A stretch of DNA of 38,535 bases from Nitrospirota bacterium (GTDB taxonomy: Bacteria > Nitrospirota > Nitrospiria > Nitrospirales > UBA8639). The stretch spans positions 1 through 38,535 of the forward strand of contig RFGT01000034.1 of assembly GCA_003696975.1 (NCBI GenBank), read 5' to 3'. Shown here piece after piece: positions 1-4,709 of this stretch (positions are counted from its first letter, which is position 1; every line of letters starts with the position of its first letter). A model generated the notes under the pieces. The model saw only the letters and a program-made list of their open reading frames with translations. It was not told the origin of the DNA and did no database searches. A program made the translations under genes and the position numbers.

Positions 1-742
1 CGAACCACCCAAACCAGAGCAACCCTGTTCCCAGGATGGTCATGGGTAAATTGTGAGGAGGCATAGGTTCAACCCCGTACCCTTTCCTAGCTCCCAACAC
101 CAGCGCGCAGACTAATGCCGCAAACCCAGAACTAATGTGAACCACGGCACCACCTGCAAAATCTAAAGCCCCTAACCCGCCCAACCAACCTCCTCCCCAG
201 ACCCAATGGGCCAAAGGCGCATAAATACATGTAAGCCAGAGTACGCCAAAGAGCAGTAAAGCAGTAAATTTCATGCGTTCGGCAAAACTTCCCGTAATGA
301 GCGCAACGGTGATTGCGGCAAACATCAACTGAAATACCATGAAGACTTGATGCGGGAGGTTGTCGGCATAGGGACCAGGTTCTACCCCGACATTTTGCAG
401 CCCAATCCAGGCCAGCCCACCAATCACCCCACCAAGATCCGGACCAAACGCCAGACTGTACCCCCACAAGATCCAAATCATGCTCATGGTACAGACCAGG
501 ATGGCCGTATGCATAATGGTCCCTAGCACGTTTTTGCTCCGGACTAGCCCGCCATAAAACAAAGCAAGTCCCGGAAGCATCATGCAGAGAACCAGGGCGG
601 AAGCCATAAGAATCCATGCCGTATCTCCGCTATCCACTGATGCTGGATTCCCTTGGGCCCACACGGGGGAAATGCCCATCACCATCAATAGAGCAGCCGT
701 GGTGGTGAGTATTCCCGCTGAGAGATGGATTCGAGAGTCCAT
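1..742 (-). CDS. amt: Ammonium transporter Amt (second copy, 3' end outside window)
   Basis: An ATG at 742 opens a frame that runs without a stop to the window edge, about 247 codons. It starts with a signal-like segment ending near PVWAQ and then shows Amt hallmarks: GDTAWILMASALVL, GLALFYGGLVRSKNVLG, FAERMKFTALLLF, the first channel histidine in APLAHWVWGGGWLG, and GAVVHISSG. It is closely similar along its length to the complete Amt at 1292-2623. AAAGGAG lies nine bases before the ATG, which supports this start. The family forms trimeric inner-membrane channels for ammonium/ammonia. It is the last visible gene of a porin-amt-glnK-amt series. The second channel histidine and the C-terminal GlnK contact region lie outside the window, so an intact gene is assumed. 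Confidence 0.95.
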   Translation of the reverse strand, partial: MDSRIHLSAGILTTTAALLMVMGISPVWAQGNPASVDSGDTAWILMASALVLCMMLPGLALFYGGLVRSKNVLGTIMHTAILVCTMSMIWILWGYSLAFGPDLGGVIGGLAWIGLQNVGVEPGPYADNLPHQVFMVFQLMFAAITVALITGSFAERMKFTALLLFGVLWLTCIYAPLAHWVWGGGWLGGLGALDFAGGAVVHISSGFAALVCALVLGARKGYGVEPMPPHNLPMTILGTGLLWFGWF

Positions 743-837: not shown

Positions 838-1188
<351 letters not shown>

Positions 1189-1291: not shown

Positions 1292-2623
1292 TCACAATAA
1301 CGTATACGCCCGTTCATTATGCTGGCTCAAATCCAATCCCAAAATCTCTTCATCTTTCTGAACACGCAGCCCGATGATTCCATCGACCACTTTGAGAAGA
1401 ATAAATGTCCCCACCAGGGCGAACACCCACGTTGCGGCAACCGCTACGAGTTGAATCCCGACCTGAGCAGGGTTTCCAAAAAATAACCCAGTGCCTCCTC
1501 CCACGCTGGCAAACAGTCCCGTGGCAATCGCCCCCCAGGTGCCGCCGATGCCATGAATGCCCAGCACATCAAGCGAATCATCATACCCGAATTTATTCTT
1601 CCAGAGAACAGCCGCATAGCAAAGTGCACCAGCCCCAATGCCAATCCACAGGGACGAAAGGGGACCAACGAACCCCGCAGCAGGAGTAATGGCCACTAAA
1701 CCGGCTACAGCGCCACTAGCCGCGCCAAGGATCGTGGGCTTTCCGCGATACACCCATTCCACCACTAACCAGCTCAACGCCGCTGCCGCCGTGGCTGTAT
1801 TGGTGGTGACAAAGGCGCTCGCGGCAATGCCATTGGCAGCCAAGGCGCTTCCCGCATTGAAACCAAACCAGCCAAACCACAAGAGACAGGCTCCAATGAC
1901 GGTGAAAGGTAGATTATGGGGCGCCATGGCCTCCTTGCCATACCCATGCCGTTGTCCGAGCACCAGCGCACAGGCGAGGGCGGAAACCCCAGAGCTAATA
2001 TGAACGACGGTCCCCCCGGCAAAATCCAGCGCTCCTAATTCTCCGAGCCAACCACCTCCCCAGACCCAATGGGCCAAGGGAGAATAGATGAACGTAGCCC
2101 ACAGCACGGCAAACAGCAAGAAGGCGCTGAATTTCATTCGTTCGGCAAAGGATCCTGTAATAAGCGCCACGGTGATTACCGCAAACATGAGCTGAAACAC
2201 CATGAAGGCAAAATGAGGGATCGTGGAGCCCTCGGTTGGCTCGGGCCCCACACCCATGAGCCCGAACCATTCCAAGCTCCCAATGATTCCCCCGATATCC
2301 GGGGCAAACGCCAGACTGTACCCCCAGAGCACCCAGACTACGCTGACGACACAGAGTGAAATGAAGCTGTGCATCATGGTTCCCAAGACATTCTTGCTCC
2401 GGACCATTCCCCCATAGAACAATGCCAGCCCCGGGGCTGTCATGGCTAAGACAAGGGCCGAAGAAGTCAGAATCCACGCTGTGTCTCCGGCACTGATCGA
2501 CGATCCGGATTCCGTGGCTCCAGCGATCGCAGGCGAACCCACGCCACCAACAACAAGCCATCCTAATAGACAGGAGAGATATACCAATAGACGAGTGTTT
2601 TGGACGATTACGCGTGTCATCAT
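1292..2623 (-). CDS. amt: Ammonium transporter Amt (complete copy)
   Basis: A complete Amt of about 443 residues. A signal-like N-terminus ending near SPAIA is followed by about eleven membrane segments. Visible family motifs are GLALFYGGMVRSKNVLG, FAERMKFSAFLLF, the twin histidines in SPLAHWVWGGG and DVLGIHGIGGTWG, and the cytosolic tail GLRVQKDEEILGLDLSQHNE that contacts GlnK. A GTG six bases further upstream is in frame, but the AGGAGG ribosome-binding site overlaps it. That leaves ATG 2623 (five-base spacing) or ATG 2620 (eight-base spacing) as the true start. The porin gene lies immediately upstream, with only 16 bases between them, so the two are probably co-transcribed. Confidence 0.97.
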   Translation of the reverse strand: MMTRVIVQNTRLLVYLSCLLGWLVVGGVGSPAIAGATESGSSISAGDTAWILTSSALVLAMTAPGLALFYGGMVRSKNVLGTMMHSFISLCVVSVVWVLWGYSLAFAPDIGGIIGSLEWFGLMGVGPEPTEGSTIPHFAFMVFQLMFAVITVALITGSFAERMKFSAFLLFAVLWATFIYSPLAHWVWGGGWLGELGALDFAGGTVVHISSGVSALACALVLGQRHGYGKEAMAPHNLPFTVIGACLLWFGWFGFNAGSALAANGIAASAFVTTNTATAAAALSWLVVEWVYRGKPTILGAASGAVAGLVAITPAAGFVGPLSSLWIGIGAGALCYAAVLWKNKFGYDDSLDVLGIHGIGGTWGAIATGLFASVGGGTGLFFGNPAQVGIQLVAVAATWVFALVGTFILLKVVDGIIGLRVQKDEEILGLDLSQHNERAYTLL

Positions 2624-2639
2624 GCTCACCTCCTCGACA

Positions 2640-3854
2640 TTAGAAGAGGTAGACTACTTCGGCGGCCAAGGTTTCTTGATGATTCGCTGCCCTGGTGCCG
2701 AATTGAAACGTATTTTTATCGGACTTATCGTACCGGAACTCGAAGCGCGTCATGAGAGAAGGAACGGGCATATATTGAAGTGTAAATGTCGTTTCCCATA
2801 GCGTCTGAGGCGTTCTCGGCGCTGAAGTTGTTCCTGTTGCACCAACGCAGGCCCCTGCTTTCGGTTTACCGGTAAAACCAAAGCAAGACATTGTGCCGGC
2901 AGCATCCTCCCAGATTTCTCCACGGATTCGCACACCCCATTGTTCCGTAAAGTCGTAGATCACATACCCTGCCACCCCATTCCACCGGGCATTGGCGGTT
3001 CCAGTTCCACTAGCATTGGCTTGGTTGGCGTAGTAGGCTTCCACGACCAATTCCAAAGCATCCGTGGCCTGAACATCCACAATGCCTCCTCCCAAAACCC
3101 GATCAGCATTGTTCACGCCCACTGCTCCTTCAGGCCCCCAAAATCCATAAAGAGTGATATTCAGTCCATCCATCGGTGTGAGATAGAGAGCAGATTCGAC
3201 CGACTTGCTATTATTAAAATCAGAAGTGACTCCGTTGAAGGCATTAATTGCTCCTACCGCAAAAGATACACTATCCGTCAACGCATATGCGGCCCGAATG
3301 CCTGTGGTCGTGAAGGGTTGCCCGAACCCGAACAACCAGGAACGGGAAAAATTCGGGTTGTAGGGGCTTTCAATCACCTCATACCCGATGAGAGAATTCA
3401 TTCGACCCAGGCGAAGATCAATCCCCTTCCCAATGGGGAGAATGTATTGCGCGTAGACTTCTTGAAAGTCGAACTCATCCGTTGCGTCAGTTCCCCCGGT
3501 AAATTCTGTGTCTTCTCCTGCATCTAGTTTAATCCGGAACCCTACGCGATCTATTAGTGATCCACCGGTTTTACCCTCTTTTTCTAACACAAGTTGAGCC
3601 AAATGTGGACGAAATGAATTGGAATCGACATCAAAGACCCGGTTCATATTGACCTTGCTGGCCGGATTATTAAAGTTTTGCACATACGAGGCCTCGACAT
3701 AACCATATAAGGAAAGCCCTAACTTCTTGCCAAGAGTCTGGTCGTCATCTGCTGCAAAGGCGGGAGTACTCACTCCACTCCAAACCATGCCGCTCATTAG
3801 ACCGCATGCAAGCACGAGGTAGAATAGACGAGCTATCATCGAGATCGCCAACAT
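2640..3854 (-). CDS. Outer-membrane beta-barrel porin (BBP2-like)
   Basis: A 404-residue protein with a signal peptide (hydrophobic residues 9-33, likely cleaved after STPAFA). Many alternating short beta-strand segments follow, and the C-terminus is aromatic (VVYLF), the usual signal for outer-membrane insertion. Features such as LSLYGYVEASYV, RLGRMNSLIGYEVIESPYN and FGFGQPFTTTGIRAAYA resemble the putative beta-barrel porin-2 family. A loop near residues 320-335 contains two cysteines that could form a disulfide. AAAGGAG nine bases before the ATG supports the start. Its position directly before amt-glnK-amt suggests it passes a small nitrogen solute, such as ammonium or urea, across the outer membrane. 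That substrate is inferred from context only. Confidence 0.85.
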   Translation of the reverse strand: MLAISMIARLFYLVLACGLMSGMVWSGVSTPAFAADDDQTLGKKLGLSLYGYVEASYVQNFNNPASKVNMNRVFDVDSNSFRPHLAQLVLEKEGKTGGSLIDRVGFRIKLDAGEDTEFTGGTDATDEFDFQEVYAQYILPIGKGIDLRLGRMNSLIGYEVIESPYNPNFSRSWLFGFGQPFTTTGIRAAYALTDSVSFAVGAINAFNGVTSDFNNSKSVESALYLTPMDGLNITLYGFWGPEGAVGVNNADRVLGGGIVDVQATDALELVVEAYYANQANASGTGTANARWNGVAGYVIYDFTEQWGVRIRGEIWEDAAGTMSCFGFTGKPKAGACVGATGTTSAPRTPQTLWETTFTLQYMPVPSLMTRFEFRYDKSDKNTFQFGTRAANHQETLAAEVVYLF

Positions 3855-4023: not shown

Positions 4024-4059
4024 ATAAAAAAATCCTCACCCCTCAATGAAGGATGAGGA
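4024..4059 (-). terminator. Rho-independent terminator
   Basis: On the minus strand the bases from 4059 to 4033 form a near-palindrome with 13-base arms and two mismatches, with outer pairs TCCTCA/TGAGGA, followed directly by seven T residues. This is a good intrinsic terminator. It could end the candidate small RNA, the rrf2-DUF2061-DUF423 operon about 260 bases upstream, or both. It lies 170 bases before the porin start, so it could also act as an attenuator of the porin-amt operon. Confidence 0.75.
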
Positions 4060-4117
4060 CTTCATTGTCCCATTGGTAAATGGTTTATCTTGGAGACGCC
4101 ATCGGCTCCGAAAAAAC
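4025..4117 (-). ncRNA. Candidate structured small RNA or 5' leader
   Basis: About 90 bases on the minus strand between a promoter-like sequence and the terminator can fold into a chain of hairpins. The first pairs 4092-4095 with 4106-4109 (GGAG/CTCC, extended by CG/CG inside). The second pairs 4070-4074 with 4079-4083 (CCATT/AATGG, four-base loop). The third pairs 4057-4060 with 4067-4070 (GGAC/GTCC). The terminator stem comes last. The third hairpin shares bases 4057-4059 with the terminator, so the two cannot both form completely, as in attenuators. I do not recognise a known RNA family. It may be a free small RNA or the leader of the porin-amt-glnK-amt operon. Confidence 0.4.
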
Positions 4118-4123
4118 GGCAAT

Positions 4124-4153
4124 CTTGTATCAGTATTACGCAAGAGGTGTCAA
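4124..4153 (-). promoter_or_regulatory. Candidate sigma-70 promoter for the small RNA/leader
   Basis: On the minus strand a perfect TTGACA (4153-4148) is followed after 18 bases by TACAAG (4129-4124), which matches four of six -10 positions. Transcription would start near 4117, just before the hairpin chain. The -10 match is modest. Confidence 0.4.
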
Positions 4154-4316: not shown

Positions 4317-4709
4317 TCAGAAAGGCACCTCCTTAGACCGATGCAGACACCCGAGAACTACACATAGCCATCCTCCCAAGAAGAGCAGGCCACCGACCGG
4401 CGTCACCATACCAGCCCATGGTGCATCAGTCAGAACAAGGAGATACAGGCTTCCGCAAAACAACAGGATGCCCGCAACAAACGACCAGACCGCATAGTGA
4501 AAAAGTTTGTTTGAACAATCACGAAGCAGCAACCCATTTGCCAGAAGAGCCAAGGCATGAACCATTTGGTAATGCACAGCAGTTTTAAAGAGTTCCAGCA
4601 TATCTTGAGAGACCACGGATTTGAGCGAATGGGCACCAAACGCCCCAGCGGCAACCGCAAGAAACCCAAACCCGGCCCCCAAAGCTACAACAACACGCGC
4701 GCGTTTCAC
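4317..4709 (-). CDS. DUF423 family membrane protein (YgdD-like)
   Basis: A 130-residue protein with four hydrophobic membrane segments and the DUF423 signature GAFGAHSLK near residues 23-31, then HYQMVHALALL and a glycine-rich third and fourth helix (TPVGGLLFLGGWLCVVLG). Length and layout match this family of small inner-membrane proteins of unknown function. The start is a GTG at 4709 without a strong ribosome-binding site. It lies only ten bases after the DUF2061 gene, so translational coupling is plausible. It is the last gene of a three-gene operon headed by an Rrf2 regulator. No biochemical role can be assigned. Confidence 0.85.
   Translation of the reverse strand: MKRARVVVALGAGFGFLAVAAGAFGAHSLKSVVSQDMLELFKTAVHYQMVHALALLANGLLLRDCSNKLFHYAVWSFVAGILLFCGSLYLLVLTDAPWAGMVTPVGGLLFLGGWLCVVLGCLHRSKEVPF

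Follow-up and report, generated by a model that had tools for sequence, protein, structure and literature searches.

A probable ANTAR-target attenuation leader before the porin-amt-glnK-amt operon of a Nitrospirales bacterium

Our analysis of a 38,535-nucleotide stretch of DNA from a Nitrospirota bacterium (below, the window, meaning this whole stretch) indicates that positions 4153 to 4026 of its minus strand are very probably a transcription-attenuation leader of the ANTAR-target kind, antiterminated by the single ANTAR protein of the cell. The sequence there reads as a promoter, two diagnostic hairpins and an intrinsic terminator, ending some 170 bases before a porin-amt-glnK-amt operon. 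This explanation is favoured by the anatomy and conservation of the element and by its compensatory changes, by its co-occurrence with the ANTAR gene across genomes, and by the nitrogen theme shared by the genes it would control. Against it are the imperfect first hairpin (P1) of the window, a long linker, a G at loop position 1 of the second hairpin (P2) in 28 of 42 leaders, and two ANTAR-negative genomes that carry good elements. The contact between protein and RNA, the antitermination and the signal are what we infer from this. Judged by its sequence, the leader is a known kind of RNA; an earlier note on this DNA had recognised no known family, which proved mistaken, since the leader is built like ANTAR target RNAs, a kind that Rfam does not report here. 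The note had left a choice between a free small RNA and a leader deciding on read-through into the nitrogen-uptake genes. The second reading is well supported by synteny in 42 leaders, by covariation, by the overlap of P2 with the terminator and by the way the element tracks the ANTAR gene, and the stretch is probably not a free small RNA.

Table 1. Predicted features of the leader and of the operon that it precedes.
Feature	Position in the window	Strand	Description
Sigma-70-type promoter	4124..4153	-	TTGACA 4153-4148, 18-base spacer, extended -10 TGATACAAG = TGA-TACAAG
Hairpin P1 (hairpin 1)	4092..4109	-	GGAGCC-GATGGC-GTCTCC, one C.U mismatch, loop G1 and G4
Linker hairpin (hairpin 2)	4070..4083	-	CCATT-TACC-AATGG; predicted -3.5 kcal/mol; not conserved in alignment
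Hairpin P2 (hairpin 3), putative antiterminator	4056..4071	-	GGGAC-AATGAA-GTCCT, hexaloop A1 and G4
Intrinsic terminator	4026..4060	-	stem core GTCCTCATCC/GGGTGAGGAT at 4060-4032, seven T at 4032-4026; 5' arm contains P2 3' arm
Whole element	4024..4119	-	region covered by the R1 and R2 covariance model matches
Gene 1, outer-membrane porin, BBP2 family	2640..3854	-	PF07642, E = 2.1e-66
Gene 2, ammonium transporter Amt	1292..2629	-	PF00909, E = 1.3e-132
Gene 3, P-II protein (GlnK/GlnB type)	838..1182	-	PF00543, E = 1e-32
Gene 4, second ammonium transporter	2..742	-	247-aa open frame, Amt-like by eye, runs off contig end

The promoter can be read much as the earlier note had it, with a perfect TTGACA and a fair -10: TACAAG, at 4129-4124, matches 4 of 6 consensus bases, and the predicted start lies near 4117. 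Like the earlier note, a consensus scan found no further minus-strand sigma-70 site between the terminator and the porin, the two being separated by about 170 bases, with the porin start codon at 3854. We also sought a sigma-54 promoter; the nearest match, at 4528-4543 and with one mismatch, falls within the DUF423 gene upstream, and matches in the window do not exceed chance.

ANTAR target RNAs are defined by two hexaloop hairpins with A at loop position 1 (A1) and G at position 4 (G4), the second of which overlaps an intrinsic terminator (PMC3369931). Three hairpins and a terminator had been claimed for the window, and all are present, but relatives conserve hairpins 1 and 3 together with the terminator, and not hairpin 2. 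Hairpin 1 (P1) reads GGAG-C-CGATGGCG-T-CTCC, with four outer pairs, then the C.U mismatch, one pair below the loop, and a single closing C-G pair around GAUGGC. Hairpin 2 lies in the P1-P2 linker, 21 nt long in the window, and has one G in common with hairpin 3 (P2); we rejected it as a functional part because relatives do not keep it, and its presence is probably incidental and specific to the window. P2, with 5 bp around the loop AAUGAA, is the sole exact match to the family pattern within the window. G4 is present in both loops; position 1 is A in P2 and G, not A, in P1. The overlap of hairpin 3 with the terminator is also real, although it is not the three bases first reported: it takes in the whole 3' arm of P2, four to five bases.

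P2 is predicted to fold at -6.1 kcal/mol and the terminator region, which has GUCC in common with it, at -20.7 kcal/mol, so that the terminator would win without protein and a stop would be the default in the mechanism we propose. Stepwise folding has P2 forming before the terminator, which displaces it as soon as its own 3' arm has emerged. For the 100-nt strand as a whole the predicted folding energy is -32.8 kcal/mol, compared with -22.5 +/- 3.2 in shuffled sequences (z = -3.19). The leader scores 64.0 bits with covariance model R1, whose training set includes it, and 50.7 bits (E = 2.4e-5) with R2, built from 83 other elements without the window leader. In an Rfam search, as the earlier note had proposed, neither the window leader nor related elements reached the gathering score of any family; PyrR, the best sub-threshold match (E = 1), was dismissed as chance level, like other matches at relaxed threshold.

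Searching relatives at the DNA level gave weak matches, to the terminator only, yet led to syntenic leaders. Via the porin gene we fetched the corresponding place in relatives; 44 same-family loci had 400 or more bases upstream of it, and 43 of these have a leader of common plan: TTGAC(A/T), about 17 bases, a TGn-TA-rich -10, P1, linker, P2 (GGAC-RAYGRA-GUCC) and terminator. When the 43 leaders are cut at the TTGAC box 50-140 nt upstream of P2, the best-fit -10 follows a spacer of 17 in 33 and of 18 in 10, and TGn stands before it in 29. Two stems of at least 3 bp with six-nucleotide loops are present in nearly all relatives, while exact A1/G4 dual hairpins occur in 13/43 leaders and in 0.4 on average after first-order Markov shuffling. 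For the alignment we used 42 leaders, the window and 41 other loci, leaving out L025, which has lost P1.

The earlier note had tied its idea to compensatory changes in relatives that keep the flanking synteny. Such changes were looked for and found in P1 and in the terminator, and the idea survived. Across the 42 aligned leaders, both sides are changed at 4 of 6 pairs in P1 and at 6 pairs of the 12-pair terminator stem. P1 and P2 together show double changes in 6 of 11 pairs, with 34 double-change cells against 13.5 in shuffles, and true partners are paired in 89.6% of cases against 35-43% for slid controls; with the terminator included, slid partners are paired in 35-53% against about 90%, and double-change cells exceed every shuffle control. 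P2 itself is nearly invariant, with both-side changes only in L024 and L052, as would be expected of a strand that must pair in both P2 and the terminator: the P2 3' arm is the terminator 5' arm in every leader. G4 is found in 42/42 of both the P1 and the P2 loops. Position 1 of the P1 loop is A in 40/42; the P2 loop has G there in 28 leaders and A in the other 14, followed by A at position 2 in all 42.

In a wider family of 83 elements, double changes reach all 6 pairs of P1, and P1 and P2 together have 100 double-change cells against 21.7. G4 is present in every row having a base there (81 for P1, 82 for P2), A1 in 70/83 of the P1 loops and 75/83 of the P2 loops, and G1 in 13/83 of the P1 loops. 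The P1-P2 linker is about 22-25 nt at median and 19-36 nt in most copies. A regular hexaloop variant with an extra base in the P2 loop/stem (GGAC-AAUGAAC-GUCC) occurs in L127, L128 and L133-L138, before FNT/nirA and activator genes.

Model R2 finds three elements in the window genome: the one before porin-amt, a second that separates the ANTAR gene from nadE, and a third upstream of nirC-nirA, a pair made up of a gene for a formate/nitrite-type transporter and a NirA-like reading frame behind it. An R1 match on contig 229 (22.9 bits) was rejected as an ordinary terminator. We compared P1 of the window element (4026-4153) with L119 and L241. The nadE copy has an irregular P1 and the nirC-nirA copy a perfect one (GGAAAAC-AAAGTG-GTTTTCC), and both keep P2 and the terminator. 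Since P1 is thus irregular before amt and nadE and perfect before nirC-nirA, the three operons may differ in response strength.

Elements in relatives stand before nadE, porin-amt, FNT-nirA and an NMT1-type binding protein with an NtrB-type permease, and further ones before a porin with UrtA and before a NifA-like sigma-54 activator adjoining FNT; the transporters that follow include urea and nitrate-type ABC transporters. The list of nadE, FNT/nirC, nirA, amt, urtA and NtrB-type permease genes fits the ANTAR regulon prediction of Ramesh 2012 (PMC3369931). The window leader belongs to a set that stands before nitrogen-scavenging genes throughout the Nitrospira-related nitrite oxidisers. Some operons, mostly those of an NrtA-type ABC transporter, are preceded by a tandem pair of elements (L125 7090-7280, L131 11814-12027, L129 1508-1720, L126 1913-2120). 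In several same-family genomes (L133 1765-3239, L128, L134, L138) the element precedes a NifA-like sigma-54 activator that has no sensor domain and lies beside the formate/nitrite transporter gene; antitermination may there feed a cascade leading to sigma-54 control.

Could the window copy be a decayed member of a family that works elsewhere? In that case the damaged P1 would leave control weak or absent, and the operon would be mainly attenuated at a fixed level. The combination of P1 mismatch and G1 in the window is unique among the 42 aligned leaders, the 43rd leader (L025) has lost P1 altogether, and the two other elements of the window genome keep P2 and the terminator, all of which favours decay. 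On the other hand the window keeps P2, terminator, promoter, the G4 of P1 and its four outer pairs, and G1 in P1 is shared with the 13 members of the wider family mentioned above. On balance we think decay unlikely.

We took the match to the definition of ANTAR target RNAs as a lead, and the test was whether the element follows the ANTAR gene. Exactly one ANTAR protein is encoded in each of 49/49 same-family genomes. Among 147 genomes of the order Nitrospirales, the element is present in 108/110 with an ANTAR gene, a conservative count that excludes a doubtful match, and in 2/37 without one; the order-wide Fisher 2x2 table used 109, which is marginally optimistic compared with 108. The doubtful case is an R2 match in G113, which resembles a plain terminator and was not counted. 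In family f3, model R1 gives 50 genomes with both, 3 with ANTAR only, 2 with the element only and 31 with neither (Fisher 1e-17, ignoring relatedness). R2 finds one element in 8/8 f2 genomes, close behind the ANTAR gene and in the same orientation, with E from 0.001 to 0.23 in whole-genome searches, against 2/27 ANTAR-negative genomes at the same threshold. In a phylum sample of 246 genomes, an ANTAR gene is present in 54/55 element-bearing genomes, and at 80 named ANTAR loci 60/60 element matches lie on the ANTAR strand. These genomes are related, so that genome counts are of non-independent events. Nitrospira defluvii is among the named hosts of the element; in Nitrospira moscoviensis the ANTAR protein is present and no element match was found within the 3 kb searched. 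Six porin upstream regions of family f3 gave no element, three of them in genomes without ANTAR, and in other f3 genomes the element precedes a different porin-amt pair. Many genomes of genus g12 in this family are without both ANTAR gene and element, a natural loss. Good elements with no ANTAR gene detected occur at L121 3079-3180 (G098) and at L251 (G146), one of them just downstream of urease genes; they are either relics of a lost regulator or cases where the ANTAR gene is missing from the assembly.

This distribution bears directly on the idea of a plain attenuator or riboswitch, in which a metabolite or folding alone would set the terminator with no ANTAR protein involved. P2 and terminator can switch on their own in stepwise folding, and ammonium uptake genes preceded by a conserved leader are a typical setting for a riboswitch. 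However, presence of the element follows the ANTAR gene, there is no pocket-like conserved core, conservation being confined to two small hexaloops and stems, and no Rfam riboswitch matches; we consider this explanation very improbable. More improbable still is a free small RNA of about 90 nt that ends at the terminator and acts in trans: premature termination would release one, and ANTAR-titrating RNAs are known (EutX/Rli55, PMC8934654), but the element always lies in sense just upstream of nitrogen genes, before operons as different as nadE, nirC-nirA, urtA and nrtA-type genes, nothing beyond hairpins and terminator is conserved, and the small-RNA reading of the earlier note finds no support of its own.

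We therefore return to antitermination by an ANTAR protein. The window genome (G000) encodes one, on contig 25 (PF03861, E = 2.8e-20), a GAF-GAF-ANTAR protein of 421 aa with its ANTAR domain C-terminal. Its gene lies between an aroB-like gene (by eye) and the NAD synthase gene nadE, assigned through a family match of the orthologue in L131. The RNA-contact residues of EutV have been named (PMC8934654), and compared with the EutV chain of 6WSH/6WW6 the protein keeps R142, K143, K149, E160, M172, N173 and R175, while Y164 is replaced by F, K147 by R, R168 by Q and R177 by S. The first GAF domain is nearest to those of PtsP and NifA-type regulators. GAF domains of the PtsP/NifA kind respond to glutamine or 2-oxoglutarate in other bacteria. 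By analogy our guess is that the signal is nitrogen limitation, sensed by the GAF domains as glutamine or 2-oxoglutarate.

How would such a leader work? RNA polymerase would start near 4117, at a promoter that looks constitutive. By default the terminator at 4060-4026 would fold and transcription would stop after about 90 nt. When active, the GAF-GAF-ANTAR protein would bind the nascent RNA, at the P1 loop first and at the P2 loop next, holding the GUCC strand in P2; the terminator would thereby be blocked and porin-amt-glnK-amt transcribed. Presumably the same protein would act on the elements before nadE and nirC-nirA.

Nitrospira-lineage nitrite oxidisers are main players of the nitrogen cycle, and the control of their own nitrogen supply is little studied. 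If our model is true, one protein and one RNA motif would predict most of the nitrogen-supply regulon, and the long linker together with G1-type P2 loops would test models of ANTAR dimers reading two hairpins. The loss of both ANTAR and element in g12 could help in learning what takes the place of this control. More generally, and here our confidence is about evenly divided, one GAF-GAF-ANTAR protein in most Nitrospirales including Nitrospira defluvii may be a general nitrogen-scarcity switch that works through antitermination rather than promoter control, reads its signal with a PtsP/NifA-like GAF domain, tolerates longer linkers than known systems do, and gates ammonium, nitrite, urea and nitrate/cyanate-type uptake together with NAD synthesis. 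Its reach in some genera would extend to a NifA-like sigma-54 activator beside nirC-nirA, adding a promoter-level cascade.

The closest comparison is with the eutP, eutG, eutS and eutA leaders of Enterococcus faecalis and their regulator EutV (PMC3369931, PMC8934654), which likewise have two A1/G4 hexaloop hairpins, the second overlapping a terminator; the ANTAR domain here has matching RNA-contact residues, and for EutV an ANTAR dimer has been proposed to read P1 and then P2, with EutX and Rli55 as RNAs of ANTAR-target type able to titrate ANTAR proteins (PMC8934654). The eut linker is 5-12 nt, unlike the longer linkers here, and one of 14 nt already cut induction; an A-to-U change at P1 loop position 1 of eutP also lowered it (PMC3369931). 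The actinobacterial definition allows single-point variation and accepts linkers of 2-25 nt, so that the window linker lies outside the eut range and inside this one (PMC8164766). The window P1, unlike those of the eut leaders, is imperfect; with its C.U mismatch and G1 the strict P1 A1 rule does not hold, and on sequence grounds we have filed the window copy as an ortholog of strict members that would work like them, not as a strict member itself. EutV carries a phospho-receiver on its ANTAR domain where this protein has two GAF domains, and the genes controlled here, unlike those of the eut leaders, serve inorganic nitrogen uptake.

NasR senses nitrate with a NIT domain, whereas the sensor here is GAF-GAF. 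The nasF leader with NasR in Klebsiella oxytoca is otherwise alike in the attenuation of nitrogen assimilation and in its one-component sensor-ANTAR protein (PMC7496416, PMC3369931). Our literature search, which covered the main text of Ramesh 2012 (PMC3369931), found no published link between ANTAR and Nitrospira, and that text does not name Nitrospirales. The regulons predicted there in Desulfotomaculum and others nonetheless resemble ours, with several leaders per genome, tandem copies, and positions before P-II, amt, urea and nitrite genes. Since ANTAR control of amt and P-II genes was thus already predicted in general (PMC3369931), our finding is ordinary in kind and useful in scope.
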